This document shows positions 1 to 31,666 of a stretch of DNA of 64,000 nucleotides, in pieces. The notes beneath the pieces are model-generated. The model searched no databases. It was given only the letters and a program-made list of their open reading frames with translations, and was not told the origin of the DNA. Numbering within the stretch: position 1 is the first letter of the stretch; every line of letters begins with the position of its first letter. Source of the DNA: Candidatus Poribacteria bacterium (lineage in GTDB: Bacteria; Poribacteria; WGA-4E; WGA-3G); NCBI GenBank assembly GCA_026702755.1, contig JAPPBX010000043.1:1-64000 (forward strand), written 5' to 3'. A program made the translations under genes and the position numbers.

Positions 1-1251
1 TCCGCCAAACCTGTCGGATCTGACCCACCCCACAGGACATTCATGTATAATCCGCCGCTGCGGGGGGGATAGAACGAATCTGACGAGGCGTGCCGTGCCC
101 TCGGCATTGAGACTGATGCCTCGGACTCTGAATAAATTCGTCGGAACGAGGGCGGTGTGGTCTCCATTAATGGTAATGGATGTATGGGTGCCGCCTATAG
201 GGGTCCATGTTTGCCCTGTATCCATGCTATACTGATACTCAAGAATGGTTTGTGGATTGATACCTGTAGGGACCTTCCAGTTGAGAGTGACGGTCGGATT
301 TCCCTCGCGTGTGACAATAAGCGTCTTGCTTGTGATCGGGTTGTTTTCGATAAGTGGCAGTGTGCCTGCAGCGGCGGGCGGTGTCTGTGGTCCATTATTA
401 TTTGCAGGCGGTGTCTGTGGGTTAATATTTTGTGGTGTCTGTGGTGTCTGCGGCGGTGGTGTCTGCGGCGGTGGTGGCGGTGGTGGCGGCGGTGGTGGCG
501 GTGGTGGATCTACATTGATAGTGACATCTATTGTGTCGGAACTTCTCGCTGTTGTCCCCCCGCCTTTTTCCTCGACCTTGACCTTTACACTGTAACTGTT
601 TTTGGTCGCATAATGTAGAGCATCCTTTGTTTTCAATTGACCTGTGCTGGAAACAATACTAAATGATGTCGCATCTGTTCCTTCAAGACTATACTCCAAT
701 GTAACATTATTCTCCGTATCAGTGTCTGCATTCGCCCAATGTGTTGCAGAGATAGCGAGACCAATATTGGTGTTTATTGCTGTGCCTTCACTAACGCTGC
801 GTGTCTCTGTGTCTGCCGAAAAGTAAAGAACATCCGTAATTACACCTGTAATATACCTGTCTATCCAGGTAGTCCCGTTGGACCCAATCCTAAATCTAAT
901 ACGACAAGTATCATAATACGAATCCTCATTAACTTTTATATAAATATTATAGGTTCCATTGGTCATACCACTAACGCTATATTGACCAGTACTTGACAGG
1001 GTGTATTCACCGTTCAATGTTTCACTAAACGTGACATTAGTGGGATTAGGATTATAAAATCCAGTTGTGGGGGGACGGGTATACCCTGAAAGTGTAATCA
1101 CCACTGAATTTGGAAAATTGTTACCGCGAGTGGTTGACTGCTCATTTCCTGAGGTAATAGTTACAGTCTGTGCTTCAGCTGCTTTCCCCACGAAAATAGC
1201 CAATAAGGTAGCACAAGCAAATATAAAATACAAAACTCTTGTTTTAAACAT
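1..1251 (-). CDS. Secreted cadherin-like/fibronectin-type repeat protein (C-terminus outside window)
   Basis: This frame is open without a stop from the ATG at 1251 to the left edge (417 codons), so the C-terminus is missing. The start follows AAAGGAG with 8-base spacing. Residues 1-27 form a signal peptide (basic MFKTR, a hydrophobic stretch, cleavage near AEA-Q). Residues about 143-244 look like a cadherin-type domain: SVSEGTAINTNIG at its start, a YSLEGTDATSFSI core and a DVTINV end strand. A proline-rich linker (about 13 consecutive Pro, then PQTP repeats) spans about 245-285. A fibronectin-III-like domain (VTLNWKVP, EYQYSMDTGQTW) follows at about 300-400. It is probably a surface or exported adhesion or matrix protein. 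Domain calls come from pattern recognition only. Confidence 0.8.
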   Translation of the reverse strand, partial: MFKTRVLYFIFACATLLAIFVGKAAEAQTVTITSGNEQSTTRGNNFPNSVVITLSGYTRPPTTGFYNPNPTNVTFSETLNGEYTLSSTGQYSVSGMTNGTYNIYIKVNEDSYYDTCRIRFRIGSNGTTWIDRYITGVITDVLYFSADTETRSVSEGTAINTNIGLAISATHWANADTDTENNVTLEYSLEGTDATSFSIVSSTGQLKTKDALHYATKNSYSVKVKVEEKGGGTTARSSDTIDVTINVDPPPPPPPPPPPPPPQTPPPQTPQTPQNINPQTPPANNNGPQTPPAAAGTLPLIENNPITSKTLIVTREGNPTVTLNWKVPTGINPQTILEYQYSMDTGQTWTPIGGTHTSITINGDHTALVPTNLFRVRGISLNAEGTARLVRFVLSPPQRRIIHECPVGWVRSDRFGG

Positions 1252-1433
1252 TATCTGTTCTCCTTTATTCATAACCCCAGCTGCTACCTTTATTTATAGA
1301 GTTATTTAATGCTCGTTGCGATGACAAACAAAAGCACTTTTAACTCAAAACCTTGGTCCCACACCGCAGCCCTGGGTCAATAAAGTTGAGTTCCTTGAAG
1401 TTTCTAGAGTCGATCAGGTCTGGGTAGGCGATA

Positions 1434-3080: not shown

Positions 3081-3279
3081 GGAATGTAGATTGCCAGATT
3101 CTATTCCTGTATTTCATCTCAAATAGTCCTCTTGTTTTATGGCTTGATGTCTTGTGGTCGCGCAAACACTGATGATTAGGTTGAGAAAAATGGCGTGCTG
3201 TGATAGAATAATCCCAAACATTGCTGCTTCATATTCACTTCATAGAACGTAGAGGCATAATTGGAGTCAATACGGTTTG

Positions 3280-4515
3280 ATGTCATTTAAATCTATCTTT
3301 ATTTCGGTATTTTTGGGGACAGCTCTGATTACTGTTGTGCTAATCCTGAATGCGAGACGACCTGCAATGGAAGTAGATCAGCCAAGTGCTGATTTTGTGC
3401 GGGCGACGGGGAAATGCGCGGAGTGCCATCGCCGCGAAACGTCTGCAATTGTCCACCAATTTGAACGGAGCGAGCATGCAAAGCACGGCGTAAGTTGCTT
3501 GGATTGCCACAAAGCTGTGGAAAATCAGGAAACACAGGCACATCGGAGCTTCACTATCGCGAAGCAACTCACGGCGAAAAATTGTAGCGAGTGCCATACA
3601 ACCGAGTATTCGCAGTTCCTCCGAAGCCGACACGCGGCACCGGCTTGGGCAGCGGTATTGGGTGCGAAGGATTTTACAGCGGAACAGATCGCCTTCGCTG
3701 AGAAATACCACAAAGGTGCAGTGGATCGTCCTGCGAATCCTTTAGCGATTGCAGAGGGTAAGAGTGCTATGGATGTTGGATGTTTGGGATGCCACGATAT
3801 AGGTAAGCCGAATCCGGATGGTTCCATTGGGACGTGTACAGCCTGCCATGCGCGGCATTCAAGTTCGGTTGCGCTGGCGCGGGAGCCCGAAACTTGTGGG
3901 CAGTGCCACATGGGACCTGACCATTCACAGATTGAAATCTACCATGAATCCAAGCACGGCGTGCTTTACAATGCCCAAAAATCAGAAATGAATCTCAAAG
4001 CACCACCGAAAGCACTCACGACAGCAGATATGACTGTGCCTACATGTGTGACATGCCACTTGAGCGGTTTGGATGGATTAAATGTGACACACGATACAAC
4101 AGAACGACTCTCGTATTGGCTATTTGCGGCGGTTTCTGAAAAGCGTCCGACTTACCAACAGGGGCAAGATGCGATGAAAGAGACGTGCTTAAAATGCCAT
4201 GCGAGTTCACAGGTAGAGATTTACTATCAGGAGGCTGAAGGTGTTGTTGCTGATACCAACCGTAAAATTTCGGAAGCCGTGATGCTAATGACATCGCTAC
4301 GTGAAGACGGATTGCTGACTGAAACGCCTTTTGATGAACCTATCGAATTTCTCTACTTCGATCTGTGGCACTATTACGGTCGGACAGCAAAACACGGCGC
4401 GTTCATGGGGGGTGCGGATTTTGTTCAGTGGCACGGAAATTATGAACTTTTGTTGAAGATGACGGAGTTGAAAAGAATTGCCCAAGAACTCAGAGAAAAT
4501 GCTGCAAAACCATAA
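3280..4515 (+). CDS. Octaheme cytochrome c, hydroxylamine oxidoreductase type
   Basis: The 411-residue product has an N-terminal membrane anchor or uncleaved signal (residues 5-25) and exactly eight CxxCH haem-binding motifs starting near residues 46, 73, 102, 168, 186, 206, 256 and 303. Eight haems and the C-terminal segment HYYGRTAKHGAFMGG followed by ADFVQWHGNYE fit the HAO-like octaheme family. These enzymes act outside the cytoplasmic membrane on hydroxylamine, hydrazine or nitrite. Direction (oxidation or reduction) cannot be read here, because it depends on a cross-linking tyrosine that needs an alignment. I chose the ATG at 3280 over the TTG just before it. The downstream membrane protein overlaps its end. 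Confidence 0.85.
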   Translation: MSFKSIFISVFLGTALITVVLILNARRPAMEVDQPSADFVRATGKCAECHRRETSAIVHQFERSEHAKHGVSCLDCHKAVENQETQAHRSFTIAKQLTAKNCSECHTTEYSQFLRSRHAAPAWAAVLGAKDFTAEQIAFAEKYHKGAVDRPANPLAIAEGKSAMDVGCLGCHDIGKPNPDGSIGTCTACHARHSSSVALAREPETCGQCHMGPDHSQIEIYHESKHGVLYNAQKSEMNLKAPPKALTTADMTVPTCVTCHLSGLDGLNVTHDTTERLSYWLFAAVSEKRPTYQQGQDAMKETCLKCHASSQVEIYYQEAEGVVADTNRKISEAVMLMTSLREDGLLTETPFDEPIEFLYFDLWHYYGRTAKHGAFMGGADFVQWHGNYELLLKMTELKRIAQELRENAAKP

Positions 4516-5290
4516 GGGATTGGCTGCCAGACTGCTCGACTTTTTTATTATTGCGAACCTGGCGTTTTTGGCACTTGACGTGTTTTTAGCGCACTCTGTC
4601 AACGCATTTGCACATCCCGCGGAATGGATCCCTTTCTACTTCTCGTTAGGTGCGTCCGTACTGCTCGTTCTAATACTTTTTCGGAAAAAAGGGCAGTGGA
4701 GAGAGTGGTGTCGGTTTAGCGTTGGGTGGGGTGCTGTTTGTATTGGCATCTCTGGCATGTTCTTTCATCTCGGCAGCGAATTCTTTTCTGATTTGACCCT
4801 CAAGAATCTTGTCTATACAGCACCATTTGTAGCACCGTTGGCTTTTACCGGGGTAGGGTTGCTTTTAATAATGAACGGTATGATTCGCGATACGGATTTA
4901 GAATGGGCACAATGGGTTGTGTTTATGGCGGGTTTCGGGTGGTGTGGTAATTTTATTCTCTCCGTTTTCGACCACGCGCAAAACGGGTTTTTCAATCCGT
5001 CTGAGTGGTTGCCGGTGTTTACGAGTGCTATCGCTGTCGGGTGTTTGGCAACGTTATTTTTTGTTCCTCACCAACCCACTTTTCTTAGGTTCTGTGTCAT
5101 TGTTTTGGGAATCAACTTCATCGTTGGTATCGCGGGGTTCTTCTTCCATTTGGCGGTAGATCTGCAAGCCCCAGGTGTTACGCAGATAGATAAATTCCTC
5201 TATGGCGCGCCTTTGTTCGCGCCCCTTCTCTTTCCAAATCTATCGCTCCTCGCGCTCTTAGGTATCTGGAAAATTTCTACCACAAACTGA
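4499..5290 (+). CDS. Multispan membrane protein, probable partner of the octaheme cytochrome
   Basis: The 263-residue product has about seven hydrophobic segments and little else. The gene starts at an ATG inside the end of the cytochrome gene (17-base overlap), so the two are translationally coupled. Two similar halves can be seen: the pairs HPAEWIPF/NPSEWLPVF and ISGMFFHLGSEFFSDLT/IAGFFFHLAVDLQAPG recur about 125 residues apart, suggesting an internal duplication. His residues in FFHL are candidate haem or quinone ligands. It may be the quinone-linked membrane partner of the cytochrome; this is inferred from position only. Confidence 0.7.
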   Translation: MLQNHKGLAARLLDFFIIANLAFLALDVFLAHSVNAFAHPAEWIPFYFSLGASVLLVLILFRKKGQWREWCRFSVGWGAVCIGISGMFFHLGSEFFSDLTLKNLVYTAPFVAPLAFTGVGLLLIMNGMIRDTDLEWAQWVVFMAGFGWCGNFILSVFDHAQNGFFNPSEWLPVFTSAIAVGCLATLFFVPHQPTFLRFCVIVLGINFIVGIAGFFFHLAVDLQAPGVTQIDKFLYGAPLFAPLLFPNLSLLALLGIWKISTTN

Positions 5291-25884: not shown

Positions 25885-27822
25885 CTATTCTGCATGGCGT
25901 CTCAACAGAAAAGCATCTTTACGGTTTTTACGTGCAATCATATTGGAAGGATTTAGACGAATACATTTATCAAAATCTGCTATAGCACGCTCATACATCT
26001 CTTTTCTACTATAAGCTACACCTCGTGTATTATAGGCACTGCTATAATGAGGGTCTATTTTAATCGCCTTACTACAATCTGCTATAGCATGGTCATACAT
26101 CCCTTTTTCACTGTAAGCAAATCCGCGATTGCTATACGGAAAAGGATCATTAAGGCCTATTTCAATCGCCCTACTACAATCTGCTATAGCATGGTCATAC
26201 ATCTCTGTTTTAGTGTAAGTATTACCTCTATTAGCGTAGGCTGGAGCATGATTAGGGTCTATTTTAATCGCCTTACTACAATCTGCTATAGCATGGTCAT
26301 ACTCACCTTTGTAACCATAAGCAACGCCACGATTAACATAAGGATCGGTATAATCAGGAGAAATTCTGATTGCTGTATTGCATGCTGCTATAGCACGGTC
26401 ATACTCGCCTTTTGCACTATAAGCAGTAGCAAGATTGTTATAGGCTTTAGCATGATTCGGATTTATTTCAATGGCTTTATTATGCTCCGCTATAGCACGG
26501 TCATACTCGCCTTTTGCACTGTAAGCAGCACCACGGTTATTGTAAAATACAGGACAATCAGGCGATATTTCAATTGCTTTGCTATAATCTGCTATAGCAC
26601 GGTTATACTCACCTTTCATTTGAAAGGCACATCCGCGATTGTTATAGACTTCAGCATTATTCAGGCTGAGTTCGATTACACGCGAGTAGACTTTTAACGC
26701 TTCGTCTATTTGATCCAACATCATCATGAAGTTACCCCGATGGAATGCTAAGAAAGCAAGTGTTTCTATTTCCTCGGGTGTTACACTCGGTGAGGGCTTT
26801 GCTTGAGATCGCATTTCGTTTACAACTTTTCGGATGCCCTCTACCACACTCATCCATCCTTTGCTCTCAGGGTTCCATTCGCTAATATCGTAAATTGGTT
26901 TGCCTTTTTCAGGAAGAACTTCAAAACCCCTGAGTTGATGATTGAGCCAATCACAATGCTCAAGGATAATTGGAATAATCCTTATTTCTTGGTTTAATGC
27001 TTCTGCTAATTCCTTGTTGCAGTTTTTAGAGGCAAGACTTGCAGCAGAGACAAGGTAGAGAAGTAGATCCGAATCAGCAACCTTTTCGAGAATATCTTCC
27101 TGAAGTGCTCCATCTCCAGGCGTGAGTTGACCATCATCCCATGTTACTAGTTCGTTATTCTGCTCCATTACGCCGAGACATTTTCGTAATTCGTTCTTCG
27201 CCTCTATATTTTCGTGTGAATAGGTAATGAATCCTTTTAGTGGTTTGTCGTTTGCATTTTCATGATATCTCTTCTTGCTAACACCTTCTTGACCTATAGG
27301 TGTTTTAGAGTCCCCAGTGTTTACATTTTGATCGTGTTCATAGTTAAACGATTTTTCTTTACCACTCTCAGGATTAGGAACATTGTTGTCATCGGACGAT
27401 GTTTTTTGCGATGCGGTACTTGATAACTTTTTTATTAAAGCTTCATAGACTTCTTCAATAGATATCAAACGTAGATCAAGATACCCGACTGTGGGAGGAA
27501 TGCCCGGAATTTCTGTATCGTCAAGACGGACGGGAAGGATATACTCACGGTTTTCTTGAAATGCCCTTGCCTGAGCAAGTTGGCGTTCATGGGTTGTCCA
27601 CAACTTTTGTTCGTAGTATTTAGACAAGAACATCACACAATAGTGAGCTTGGTCTTTGTAAACTGATGACAAGTAGTCATACAGGTTTTTGCCCCACAGA
27701 TTTGCTAGCTCATTCTCATCATAAAAGCACGAATAGCCGTTCATTTTAAGAAGATCTGCTAACTCTTTGGCATGCTTTCTATCTTCTCCTGCAAATGATA
27801 ATACTACATCGTATTCTTGCAT
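25885..27822 (-). CDS. Double TIR-domain protein with eight C-terminal TPRs, candidate defence effector
   Basis: The 645-residue protein opens with a TIR domain (about 2-125): YDVVLSFAGEDRKHAKELA, FYDENELANLWG, and KLWTTHERQLAQA with the Glu expected for NAD-cleaving TIRs. After a polar linker (about 140-195) comes a second TIR-like domain (about 197-340): LKGFITYSHENIEAKNEL, WDDGQLTPGDGALQEDI, SDLLLYLVSAASLASKNCNK. Residues about 360-640 form eight TPRs. Bacterial TIR proteins commonly degrade NAD+ to abort phage infection, with repeats as sensors. It has its own consensus promoter (27928-27956) and sits with FRG and restriction-modification genes. The role is inferred. Confidence 0.85.
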   Translation of the reverse strand: MQEYDVVLSFAGEDRKHAKELADLLKMNGYSCFYDENELANLWGKNLYDYLSSVYKDQAHYCVMFLSKYYEQKLWTTHERQLAQARAFQENREYILPVRLDDTEIPGIPPTVGYLDLRLISIEEVYEALIKKLSSTASQKTSSDDNNVPNPESGKEKSFNYEHDQNVNTGDSKTPIGQEGVSKKRYHENANDKPLKGFITYSHENIEAKNELRKCLGVMEQNNELVTWDDGQLTPGDGALQEDILEKVADSDLLLYLVSAASLASKNCNKELAEALNQEIRIIPIILEHCDWLNHQLRGFEVLPEKGKPIYDISEWNPESKGWMSVVEGIRKVVNEMRSQAKPSPSVTPEEIETLAFLAFHRGNFMMMLDQIDEALKVYSRVIELSLNNAEVYNNRGCAFQMKGEYNRAIADYSKAIEISPDCPVFYNNRGAAYSAKGEYDRAIAEHNKAIEINPNHAKAYNNLATAYSAKGEYDRAIAACNTAIRISPDYTDPYVNRGVAYGYKGEYDHAIADCSKAIKIDPNHAPAYANRGNTYTKTEMYDHAIADCSRAIEIGLNDPFPYSNRGFAYSEKGMYDHAIADCSKAIKIDPHYSSAYNTRGVAYSRKEMYERAIADFDKCIRLNPSNMIARKNRKDAFLLRRHAE

Positions 27823-27927
27823 TTTTGCTACCTCTTAAATCCTTGCAAACTGGATTTCCACACAATCCGAGATTCAGACACTTTATTCTGTTTCTTACTC
27901 CTACAATGTGTCTTTCCTACATGTTAA

Positions 27928-27956
27928 ATCATACCATGTTCATGCTGGTTTGTCAA
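27928..27956 (-). promoter_or_regulatory. Consensus promoter for the TIR/TPR gene
   Basis: TTGACA (27951-27956), a 17-base spacer and TATGAT (27928-27933) on the minus strand, about 105 bases before the start codon. Confidence 0.75.
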
Positions 27957-27973
27957 TTTCAATTTTGCGAAAC

Positions 27974-28009
27974 TGTCTGAATCGCGGATTACGCAGATTT
28001 CGCGGATTA
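27974..28009 (+). repeat. GAATCGCGGATT repeat copy
   Basis: CTGTCTGAATCGCGGATTACGCAGATTTCGCGGATTATT lies just upstream of the TIR gene promoter and faces the inverted copy at 28115. Confidence 0.7.
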
Positions 28010-28114
28010 TTGCCTTTGGTATCGGCAAGTTGTTTTCCCGAATGATAGAGCGTTTTTCTATGTCAATGTTTGATGTTTTTCTTTCGATGCGCTTCCGGTG
28101 ACAGAAACCCTTAA

Positions 28115-28160
28115 AATCCGCGTTAATCCGTGTCATCCGCGTAATCCGCGATTCAGACAC
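28115..28160 (-). repeat. GAATCGCGGATT repeat copy, inverted
   Basis: This copy reads in the opposite direction to the one at 27974, so the two flank a 105-base unit as inverted repeats. Confidence 0.7.
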
Positions 28161-28225
28161 TCCCCTCCACAATCGCAATCTCATCTTCCGTTAAATTATA
28201 CAATTCATAGACCAGTTTATCAATC

Positions 28226-31200
28226 TCATTTTGAAGATTTTGCCCTCGATAGACGGAAATTTACCTGCTCAATTAAGGCGTTTCTGATATCTTCCAGTCT
28301 GTCTTGAAAACCAAAATAGTCTGCAACTATGTCATCTATGAGCAAATGTTCATCTGTGTAAATCTCCTTTGAAACAGGCAACGGTTCTCTATCTTTAAGT
28401 ATCTCAAATACCTGCTTTGCTTCGCGCTCAAAGTCAAAATTAAAATCTATGGGTAACATTTTCATATCTGTTGCTTCTGCTTTCAACAATCCGCCCCCAA
28501 GATTTTTCCGACCAGTAATTTCCCTGAACAACCAGACAAAAGAAGAATTTAGGTAAACCCACAAACAATAGTGCGTCTCTGAATTCCAAAGGTCTTCCGG
28601 CAGATACAATTCTACATGACTATATGAAAATGCCCGACACGAGTTGAAAGTACAGTAATGACGTGCGCCCACACCTCGGGGCATAACTAATGCCGGTATT
28701 TTTTCCATTCTCTTGCTTGCTAACGCGGGTTTTATCCTTTTGTCGGCAGAAGCAGCAATAAATTGCGCACTTTTGACAATAACTGGCAAATCAGAATTAT
28801 CAGCACTCAATTGGCTTAAAGGAAAATTCAATCCTTGCCCAAAAGAAATCTTGTCACTTACATTTTTACGTGCTTCTGATCTCATCTTTGACAGTATTTC
28901 TCTATAAAATTCGGGCATTGAGAAGATGTGCCCCCACTTCATCAATTGGCTTGATTTTATTACCTTGTTGTCACTAATAATCAGGTTAGCATCAACAACG
29001 CCATACTCTATATCTTCCACTGCTTCTCTAACAAAAAGAGTGATAATAGTGTTTATGTTCTGACTTTTACTATCGGAGAAAAATTTGCTACTACTATCAA
29101 TAATTTTCAAAAAGGAAAATCTGTTGACAGAGAATTGTTGGAACTTGTGTCCATAATCGGTATTGAGCCAAGCGTTTTGCGTGATAAAGCATCCATTCCC
29201 AGATTCATTCAAAAATTTGGACGAACGGGCGTAAAAATAGATTAGCAGATCGCTGCCGCGAGGCAGCGCGTCTTGCCAATCAGAAACGACTTGTTTTCCA
29301 TAGGCTATTTTCTGTTCATCCGATAGTAAGCTGTTCCTGGACTCAACATACGGCGGATTGCCAATTACCACATCAAATCCGTCTGTGATTCCGAACATCC
29401 ATTCTGAATCAAACCAATCGGCAGAGGCGTTTTGGTCATAGATATCCCATTTAGCGATCTTTTCAGCATCATCTGCTGGCATGCCGAAATGCTTTAGTTC
29501 GGTTGCCAATTCTGCTCGCAATTCTCCGTCCTTAATCTTGCATGTGCGTTTGCGTTGACGGGTGGTGGCGTGGAAATGCTGCTCACGGTTGTCGCGCAGT
29601 GCCTTTTCCAAATTTTGTGCTGTGTTGCTCGTCAACGTTCCTTGTGCCTTGAGCCCAATCAGTGTGTTTGCGGCGATAAAACGCGTCTCCAAATTTGGCA
29701 AGGGTTTGATACCGAAGTTATCTGCGTTCTGCTCGGGCTCCTGCTCAATTGCGAGGGAGATAAAGAAGCGGAGTTTGGCGATTTGGCACGCTACAGACTG
29801 GATGTCTACACCGAAGATGCTGTTTTGGATGAGGTATAACTTGCGTCCAAAGTCTGAATCTCGGTAGCGTTTGAAGGTTTCGTCAATTTCAACGAGTTCT
29901 TCACGGCGTGCTTCGTCGTCTTGTGTATCAAAAGCGACTTCTGCACGTTGGACGGCGCGTTCCTTCTGTAATTTTTCCCATCGGTTGTTATCTGGGTCAA
30001 GTCGGCGGAGTGCGAGCGTCAGTTTGTGGAGCATTCCCATCGGGAACGCACCGGAACCGACTGCGGGATCCAGGACCTTGAGTTCGGAAATTGCTCGGAC
30101 GATTGCGTCCGTTTCGACATCATCAAACCATTCGTTGGCATCGTCGAAGGCTTGGGCATAGTCGAGGAGATAGTGTAACCGTTCATCCCACAGTTTTGCG
30201 TCTCCATCGGTTGGGTCGCATTTTTGGGATAACGTGGCGACCAATGCTTCTTCCACCATGTAGTCAACGATAGCCCGTGGGGTGTAGTAGGATCCGGTCT
30301 GTTTACGCACCGTTGCACCGGTTTCGGGGTTGTAGGCAGCGAGTAGATTTTCAAACACTCTGCCGAGCAGTTCGGGATCCAAAGCCACTTCTTGCTCTAT
30401 CGGTGTGTTCTCCTCGACAGTGAATTTGTAGTGTTCAAGTAGCGGGATGAGTCCTTGCTGCGCATCAAAAAAAAGGCGGTTAGGGATGGATAACTTGTGG
30501 TACTGATTATCAGAGAAACAGTCTATTCGGTAACTCGCTTCACCCGTTGCTTCCCAACTATCGAGGCAATCGAACAATCCGCCGTTGATGAAGGGTGTTT
30601 TGCCGAACAGTTCCAATAGTCTATCGGGGTCGCGCATCTGATCTTTATAACGATAGCGTGAGAAATCGCGATTTGTGGCGTAGCCAACGGTGCTGAACTT
30701 TCGTTTATCTATTTCGGTGTTGAGTGTGGCGAAAAAGAGGTTTTGTAGCACGGCACGATAGTAGGCATCGCCGTTATCAAAGTCATCCTCTTTGAGTAGG
30801 TCTTGGATCTGTGTTTTGTTGAATAACGCATCTGTCACCAATCGTTTTTCCTTGATAAACCAGATAAAGAGCAGGCGTGTGATGAGGCGTATCACATGCT
30901 CCTCCGGTTGTAAGGTGCGGTTTTCGTCTGTCGGGAATGTTGCTGTCTCTATTGCCCATTCATACCACGCGAAAAGTTTTCGATAGAACTGCTTATTGAG
31001 TTCTTCGGTGTCCAACTTGGCGAGCCATGCAGCCAGCAGTCCGTCGAAGTTTTTCGGTTTTCTGTTGTCGTCTATCCATTGGACGCATGCCTCAAGTGAG
31101 AGTTCGGAGAGGATGTCGAGATGTGCGCGATGGGGGTTGTTCAGGCGGATGTCTTTGATGAGGGTGACTTGTCCGAGTACATCGCGGTCTTCATCAGTTT

Positions 31201-31666
31201 TGTCTGGACGGCGGTCGGCAAATGCGACCGTCAAACGATTCCGGGCGCGAAATAGGATCACAGTGGGTGCGAACAGACGTTTGTTAATTTCTCTTGTGAA
31301 TTCGGCGTATTTGGTTCGGGAGTAGGTGTTATCTTTTAGTTCAACTGCACAGAACAGGAAACTTTTTATGTTTCCTTTGTCGAAAGCATCTGACTCGAAG
31401 AGTTTTTGCTGAATATCGTCAGTGATTTCATCACTTGTGAACTGGAACACGAGTTTCACAGATTCGGCGTGTTTGCGGAATTCTTGTTCGGTCTTGGTGT
31501 TCGGGTTCAGTGGTGGGAATTCTTCAAAAAAGTCCTGGACGGTGCCGGAGAGTTCAAGCGTGCGTTCACTGCGGTAGCCTATCGTTGCTAAGAGGTCTTT
31601 TGCTTTTTCTAAGAAATCACCGGTTGGGATTGCTGATAGTACGGATTTGATTGCCACTTGGTTCAT
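28226..31666 (-). CDS. Eco57I-like N6-adenine DNA methyltransferase (type IIG/ISP-like restriction-modification protein)
   Basis: The 1146-residue product has a conserved N-terminal region (with FCAVELKDNTYSRTKYAEF near 105, a possible but unproven E-x-K nuclease site). A methyltransferase core follows: GSYYTPRAIVDYMVEEAL near 458, SAM motif VLDPAVGSGAFPMGMLH near 530 and catalytic NPPY near 770. The C-terminal region (HYCTFNSCRAFSYSHVELYL, LGGGLLKAEATDMKMLPI) is like target-recognition domains of the TaqI/Eco57I group. It probably methylates adenine in a specific DNA site. A PLD-SNF2 helicase lies 1.7 kb upstream with toxin-antitoxin genes between. Confidence 0.9.
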   Translation of the reverse strand: MNQVAIKSVLSAIPTGDFLEKAKDLLATIGYRSERTLELSGTVQDFFEEFPPLNPNTKTEQEFRKHAESVKLVFQFTSDEITDDIQQKLFESDAFDKGNIKSFLFCAVELKDNTYSRTKYAEFTREINKRLFAPTVILFRARNRLTVAFADRRPDKTDEDRDVLGQVTLIKDIRLNNPHRAHLDILSELSLEACVQWIDDNRKPKNFDGLLAAWLAKLDTEELNKQFYRKLFAWYEWAIETATFPTDENRTLQPEEHVIRLITRLLFIWFIKEKRLVTDALFNKTQIQDLLKEDDFDNGDAYYRAVLQNLFFATLNTEIDKRKFSTVGYATNRDFSRYRYKDQMRDPDRLLELFGKTPFINGGLFDCLDSWEATGEASYRIDCFSDNQYHKLSIPNRLFFDAQQGLIPLLEHYKFTVEENTPIEQEVALDPELLGRVFENLLAAYNPETGATVRKQTGSYYTPRAIVDYMVEEALVATLSQKCDPTDGDAKLWDERLHYLLDYAQAFDDANEWFDDVETDAIVRAISELKVLDPAVGSGAFPMGMLHKLTLALRRLDPDNNRWEKLQKERAVQRAEVAFDTQDDEARREELVEIDETFKRYRDSDFGRKLYLIQNSIFGVDIQSVACQIAKLRFFISLAIEQEPEQNADNFGIKPLPNLETRFIAANTLIGLKAQGTLTSNTAQNLEKALRDNREQHFHATTRQRKRTCKIKDGELRAELATELKHFGMPADDAEKIAKWDIYDQNASADWFDSEWMFGITDGFDVVIGNPPYVESRNSLLSDEQKIAYGKQVVSDWQDALPRGSDLLIYFYARSSKFLNESGNGCFITQNAWLNTDYGHKFQQFSVNRFSFLKIIDSSSKFFSDSKSQNINTIITLFVREAVEDIEYGVVDANLIISDNKVIKSSQLMKWGHIFSMPEFYREILSKMRSEARKNVSDKISFGQGLNFPLSQLSADNSDLPVIVKSAQFIAASADKRIKPALASKRMEKIPALVMPRGVGARHYCTFNSCRAFSYSHVELYLPEDLWNSETHYCLWVYLNSSFVWLFREITGRKNLGGGLLKAEATDMKMLPIDFNFDFEREAKQVFEILKDREPLPVSKEIYTDEHLLIDDIVADYFGFQDRLEDIRNALIEQVNFRLSRAKSSK

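Follow-up and report, generated by a model that had tools for sequence, protein, structure and literature searches.

Outside nitrifiers and anammox bacteria, it is an open question how cytochromes of the HAO family are wired to the membrane and which substrates they reduce. A locus in a sponge-associated Candidatus Poribacteria bacterium (5.84-Mb draft genome, assembly GCA_026702755.1) raises it in a concrete form: what is the membrane protein encoded immediately behind an octaheme cytochrome, and what might the two do together? The window, i.e. the whole stretch of DNA analysed, covers the first 64,000 nucleotides of contig C43 (JAPPBX010000043.1). A preliminary description of positions 3280-5290 had proposed an HAO-like octaheme cytochrome with a duplicated membrane partner, and had suggested that the enzyme may reduce nitrite or hydroxylamine, or else be an uncharacterised variant whose quinone-linked partner is new. 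Elsewhere in the window, a 645-aa ORF, whose start presumably resembles a TIR domain, lies beside a 1146-aa ORF (25885-31666, minus strand), possibly as a defence or signalling pair, and a glycine-rich low-complexity run (245-595, plus strand) is placed inside a larger opposite-strand ORF (1-1272, minus strand).

The first gene of the locus (3280..4515, plus strand; the start was taken as the ATG at 3280, while the ORF list begins at the TTG at 3277) encodes an octaheme cytochrome c of 411 aa. The eight CxxCH motifs of the preliminary description are indeed present, against at most two in any of 20,000 versions of the protein with shuffled residues, and the HAO-family model PF13447 matches over its cut-off (E 3.1e-31). 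Eight motifs were also counted in all 70 whole cytochromes of the comparison set, whose sequences had been chosen for at least eight. Sequence matches in the PDB comprise the octaheme protein 4qo5 (6.3e-37), the HAO 4fas (3.7e-21) and hydrazine dehydrogenase. The AlphaFold2 model is of moderate quality (pLDDT 72.2, pTM 0.60); its best Foldseek match is again 4qo5 (1e-9), and in the VIA comparison its C-terminal half (residues 197-411) reaches a Z of 11.7 with both HAO and 4qo5 (rmsd of 3.2 over 206 and 3.1 over 209 residues, respectively). Residues 3-25 (3286..3354, plus strand) form a helix in the model and are predicted to cross the membrane; they are followed by R27 and P28, which are kept in at least 95% of the 70 sequences. 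Most of the 30 partner-linked sequences compared have a similar N-terminus (L157 being the most divergent), and we read the helix as an uncleaved membrane anchor.

The direction in which such an enzyme works may be approached through its active site. An alignment for the cross-linking tyrosine, suggested in the preliminary description, places Tyr467 of HAO (1fgj) on Trp384 of the window cytochrome, within the motif FVQWHG. The exact column is uncertain by one, because HAO carries one extra residue there, and neither neighbour of the column is a tyrosine in the window cytochrome; residues 382-386 read VQWHG in all 70 sequences, while 68 of them have Phe and 2 have Tyr at residue 381. The oxidative P460-bearing HAO and hydrazine dehydrogenase have a Tyr cross-linked to heme 4, which is thus missing here. 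The place of Tyr467 is occupied by a group signature, GADFVQWHG (residues 378-386; 4411..4437, plus strand), found in full in 66 of 70 cytochromes, with W384, H385 and G386 in every one. An "HAO-type C-terminus", as it had been called, therefore holds at the family level only, the signature itself being different from the GGWTYTEG of HAO. Asp267 and His268 of HAO, a pair that we take to be catalytic, align to Asp214 and His215, and His215 is present in 70/70 sequences.

According to the available part of a recent paper (PMC12758564, 2025), oxidative enzymes have the Tyr and reductive ones a His at that site, the absence of Tyr is tied to reductive function and most non-anammox members are described as reductive. 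In the window cytochrome, His385 adjoins the column aligned to HAO Tyr467. Since the cross-linking Tyr is absent and the Asp/His pair is kept, the cytochrome is likeliest a reductive enzyme, as judged from its sequence. It shares an HAO fold without the Tyr with the reductive HAO-like enzymes (HAOr, epsilon-Hao and IhOCC), as indicated by the alignment and by a model with a pLDDT of only 72. The closest solved relative, 4qo5, is presumably IhOCC of Ignicoccus hospitalis, which is reportedly a membrane-associated octaheme cytochrome. It is the best PDB match not only in the sequence and Foldseek searches given above but also in a profile search (3.8e-100), and it too lacks a Tyr at the HAO Tyr467 column, where it has Phe; however, it is longer (521 aa vs 411) and has Asp-Val where the window cytochrome has Asp214-His215.

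The second gene (4499..5290, plus strand; ATG at 4499 as the best start, with the mechanical ORF beginning at 4478) overlaps the cytochrome gene by 17 bp and encodes a membrane protein of 263 aa. AlphaFold2, run on 18 relatives, predicted eight long helices (mean pLDDT 80.7, pTM 0.81), and the two similar halves noticed earlier were recovered: residues 1-131 (4499..4891, plus strand) and 132-263 (4892..5287, plus strand), each a 4-helix unit. Alignment of half 1 with half 2 by hhalign, based on 75 of 77 partner sequences (the contig-cut L117 and L156 were dropped), gave a probability of 98.8 (E 4.8e-17, 102 columns), whereas the highest value among 30 column-shuffled controls was 4.4, and the reversed control gave 2.06. 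By these profiles, the two halves did arise by internal duplication. His32 is aligned with His159, one Glu-Trp-x-Pro motif with the other, and His90 with His217. These four histidines, as well as Asp27, are present in 76/77 partners, the lone miss for the histidines being the contig-cut L156, and they lie near the predicted outer ends of TM1 and TM3 (His32, His90) and of TM5 and TM7 (His159, His217). Mean numbers of K+R per loop (75 sequences) are 3.0, 2.8, 1.2, 1.3 and 1.3 on the N-terminal side vs 0.5, 1.0, 0.2 and 1.1 on the opposite side; from this bias, the N-terminus is probably inside and the four histidines near the periplasmic ends of TM1, 3, 5 and 7. In cytochrome b proteins, heme is held within a 4-helix bundle by a diagonal pair of histidines. 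That each half of the partner has two invariant ones, all of them predicted to be periplasmic, suggests two b-hemes, and two placed histidine pairs (H32/H90 and H159/H217), as expected of a bis-His diheme b membrane protein, are found in the sequence and predicted topology. We infer that each half may bind one heme b, facing the cytochrome.

As far as sequence comparison reaches, the partner belongs to no known family. No family exceeded its cut-off in Pfam (18 members, then 31 diverse members) or NCBIfam (31 members), a profile search of PDB sequences gave no match up to E 10, and Foldseek returned nothing for the model at E <= 0.001. Its best VIA matches are two soluble Bacillus proteins, the metal-binding helix bundles 3dby and 3d19 (Z 16.5 and 16.3), followed by unrelated bundles at Z of about 10-11 and, lower, by designed heme-b bundles; we take these matches to reflect no more than a common packing of helices, which proves nothing. 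Matches to YWFCY, ECF and ceramidase families stayed below cut-offs and were inconsistent between members. A quinol dehydrogenase of the NapC/NrfH/cM552 type (tetraheme or pentaheme c, PF03264) was rejected, as the partner has no CxxCH and no Pfam family over cut-off. A bc-type cytochrome b was rejected as well: PF00033 and PF00032 match neither the window partner nor the 31 diverse members, and PF00033 matches the cytochrome b of locus L063 (see below) at 7.5e-52. For an NrfD/PsrC-type subunit, with its eight TM helices in two 4-helix bundles, the picture is mixed: the partner does have eight helices and a duplication, but no NrfD family appeared in the Pfam and NCBIfam scans and no NrfD-type chain is among the VIA matches listed, a negative with no power to exclude. 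An adjacent FeS subunit (NrfC/PsrB) is not found, no third conserved neighbour being seen in 47 loci. The locus combines a known enzyme family (HAO) with a new dedicated partner.

How dedicated the partner is can be judged from its distribution. Relatives of the partner, scanned in one genome per species, gave 76 loci in named genomes, in Poribacteria, Gemmatimonadetes (Gemmatimonadota), Oligoflexales, Marinimicrobia/Neomarinimicrobiota, Planctomycetota, Zixiibacteriota, Acidobacteriota, KSB1, Pseudomonadota, Myxococcales (Myxococcota), Halobacteriovoraceae and one Caldilineaceae, i.e. under about 10 phylum-level names. Complete-chromosome records with the pair include Minicystis rosea DSM 24000 (L155) and Planctomycetota strain ZRK32 (L115); no plasmid copies were found. 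A cytochrome, whole or broken, lies directly upstream of the partner on the same strand in 75/76 loci. In 72 of the 76 this is a multiheme ORF (complete and with eight motifs in 69, truncated at a contig end in 3); in L121 the cytochrome is in broken frames, and in L085 and L149 it is cut or broken. The one locus without it, L156, consists of the second half of the partner at a contig end, with no cytochrome in 3.5 kb. Among 117 relatives, 35 genomes have the partner and in 34 of them the cytochrome adjoins it. The remaining genome (G018) carries a broken partner remnant without a cytochrome; it is a decayed copy (L162:4733-5044, contig C4) in which some 97 residues of the second half survive, pointing to loss within the genus. 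Another relative, G006, has two complete pairs (C72:78788-80795 and C29:7346-9338), whose partners are 92% and 62% identical to that of the window. In-frame stops were seen in one cytochrome (G026) and one partner (G056). Within the genus the pair occurs in 18 of 38 genomes (one with an in-frame stop, some cut by contig ends), and this patchiness implies that it is dispensable.

The reverse search started from the cytochrome, in 392 Planctomycetota genomes (HAO-family match at E <= 1e-40, up to 4 candidates scored per genome). Such a match was present in 63 genomes. Thirteen of them have a cytochrome with 47-69% identity to that of the window, and exactly those 13 hold the partner, adjoining and on the same strand; the cytochromes of the other 50 are at most 46% identical and have no partner. 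The partner alone was found in 0 of 392 genomes. This two-way co-occurrence is exclusive and rules out a chance pairing. The preliminary description would have been undermined by a membrane protein not conserved beside related cytochromes, and conservation was found in all three sets (75/76 loci, 34/35 relatives and 13/13 Planctomycetota).

The two proteins diverge at different rates: in 39 of the 40 non-Poribacterial loci with a whole cytochrome, the cytochrome is 62-72% identical to that of the window, whereas the partner is 39-55% identical (40% and 31%, respectively, in L157), so the cytochrome evolves slower than the partner. No third conserved neighbour gene was found in 47 loci (L111-L157, of which 46 are outside Poribacteria and L117 is Poribacterial), and because no third gene travels with the pair, it should be self-sufficient. 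No nitrogen gene is a conserved neighbour in the same 47 loci, which counts against the N-oxide proposal made below. No regulatory motif, including an FNR/NNR/CRP-type site, was detected in the 67 upstream regions scanned, and no strongly conserved upstream block in 28 Poribacterial upstream regions.

A tree of 60 cytochromes was built from 48 of the 70 whole partner-linked sequences (near-identical Poribacteria were thinned) and 12 others, with L066 left out. The 48 form one group, with a support of 94/89 when L157 is included and 100/98 without it; the placing of L157 is less sure than the core group because of long branches (L078, L068, L157 and L065). Next to it is a group containing L063, L064 and L067, at all of which a bc-type cytochrome b is present. 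These three and L066 are the nearest cytochrome relatives outside the partner-linked group (36-40% identity), but it is a bc-type cytochrome b that adjoins the cytochrome there, and not the 8-TM protein. At L063, Pfam confirmed the cytochrome b (PF00033, E 7.5e-52) and identified a Rieske protein beside it (PF00355, E 3.8e-13). In the four loci looked at, the bc-type cytochrome b is a second quinol-oxidising partner in the same slot of the same enzyme family.

The genome of the window adds evidence on both sides. As stated in the preliminary description, the usual HAO partners are absent: the partner has no CxxCH, and the genome yielded no gene of the NapC/NrfH family, which turned up in 1 of the 57 genomes searched across the order. 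NrfA, NirK, NarG and NapA are likewise not found over cut-off in the genome. On two other contigs, C48 and C114, a NirA-like nitrite/sulfite reductase, an MFS transporter adjoining it and a contig-end molybdopterin oxidoreductase were noted (L160:3096-6293 and L158:4515-6497). By their sequences, these are likely a nitrate-assimilation cluster split between contigs, from which it follows that the organism probably meets nitrate and nitrite. No dissimilatory nitrate reductase exceeds the cut-off in this genome, and the supply of periplasmic nitrite is thus a point against the proposal, as are the patchy distribution, the lack of an upstream FNR/NNR/CRP-type site and that of a confident Foldseek match for the partner.

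From these observations we infer, with a probability of roughly 55%, that the pair is a membrane-anchored quinol:N-oxide reductase complex in which the 8-helix protein serves as a diheme-b quinol dehydrogenase. Both genes would encode one inner-membrane redox complex, with the cytochrome held on the outer membrane face by its N-terminal helix. Heme 4 of the cytochrome, served by Asp214 and His215 and free of a P460 tyrosine cross-link, would be the site where nitrite, nitric oxide or hydroxylamine is reduced, probably in the direction of ammonium. The partner, as the cytochrome's dedicated electron donor, would consist of a fused pair of 4-helix bundles; in each of them one b-type heme would be held between the His of the first helix and that of the third, both hemes lying near the periplasmic side. 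Electrons would pass from quinol to the b-hemes, then to the eight c-hemes and the substrate, so that the partner would do the job of NrfH/NapC. Quinol oxidation would release its protons on the side where the substrate takes them up, which would make the step electroneutral, as it is in NrfHA. The preliminary suggestion of a reductive enzyme or an uncharacterised variant with a new partner is supported by the absent Tyr and the conserved partner, its quinone linkage and substrate remaining in the conditional. Soil myxobacteria lead an aerobic life; their carrying the pair, like its patchy spread, would also be compatible with a role in removing toxic NO or hydroxylamine instead of in respiration that supports growth.

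Three other readings were weighed against the quinol:N-oxide reductase. The most serious of them, although in our view unlikely, is that the partner has no redox cofactor and acts as an assembly or anchoring factor, or offers an NrfD-like heme-free quinol site, with electrons coming from a soluble carrier. Sequence cannot show cofactors, and NrfD-type quinol subunits also have eight predicted helices (available part of PMC12285233); however, the four invariant histidines at equal depth, two per repeat, speak against it, the cytochrome already has an anchor of its own, and the 47 loci share no neighbouring gene for an FeS protein of the NrfC kind.

The other two concern the cytochrome. That it reduces a sulfur compound (sulfite, tetrathionate) or another acceptor seems improbable: its closest solved relatives are 4qo5 and HAO-type proteins, not MccA or OTR, and the Asp/His of the N-oxide site are kept, even if no nitrate reductase over cut-off supplies nitrite in the genome and the available part of PMC9213671 proposes sulfur reduction for a Desulfobacterota clade of HAO-family proteins that falls outside the nitrogen-cycling one. 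Slightly less probable still is the reverse direction, a forward HURM-like module in which the cytochrome would oxidise hydroxylamine, hydrazine or NO and the partner would hand the electrons to quinone. A membrane partner could work either way and the cytochrome shares its family with HAO and hydrazine dehydrogenase, but the P460-forming Tyr is missing in all 70 aligned cytochromes and no ammonia-oxidation gene is a conserved neighbour (neighbours being those of the 47 loci only).

The proposed quinol:N-oxide reductase resembles known systems in part. In the available part of the work on reverse-HURM in Nautilia profundicola (PMC3701875), HaoA, a Tyr-less HAO-family cytochrome, is proposed as a quinol-fed nitrite reductase together with a CycB of cM552/NapC type; the quinol link proposed there is a tetraheme c cytochrome, whereas the protein in that role here would be the 8-TM partner, which lacks CxxCH motifs and does not resemble the NapC family. 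NrfHA, as presented in the available part of PMC12285233, is likewise a two-gene quinol-to-multiheme reductase on the outer membrane face, an arrangement predicted here; unlike it, the window cytochrome scores 22.9 bits with the NrfA model, below cut-off, and the pair gives no NapC/NrfH-family match. Earlier reports of HAO-like genes cover some of the phyla that carry the pair (PMC11266412, PMC10732223 and PMC9213671, as far as their available parts go). The octaheme "Onr/Hao" genes in Phycisphaerae (PMC11266412) concern some of the same organisms (L120, L129 and L151) and a reductive role was suggested for them, but a membrane partner is not mentioned in the available part of that article. 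A description of the cytochrome and 8-TM pair was not found in the open-licence PMC literature, outside whose reach most subscription papers lie, and the pair may be described elsewhere.

The available part of PMC9213671 calls for work on HAO proteins outside clade III. Because the pair is a defined, strictly co-occurring donor-acceptor couple, with complete-chromosome carriers among its hosts, the question of membrane wiring becomes directly testable. Tentatively, and at somewhat less than even odds, the partner would represent a new class of respiratory quinol dehydrogenase, made of a duplicated 4-helix unit with two periplasmic-side b-hemes and unrelated to NapC/NrfH, NrfD and bc-type cytochrome b, and the pair a minimal two-gene ammonifying or N-oxide-detoxifying respiratory complex spread across many phyla without NrfHA. 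The two-gene unit points to an undescribed feed of membrane electrons into an enzyme of nitrogen-cycle type in a sponge-associated bacterium, and, if it is indeed an N-oxide reductase, genomes scored as non-ammonifying for lack of nrfHA would need rescoring.
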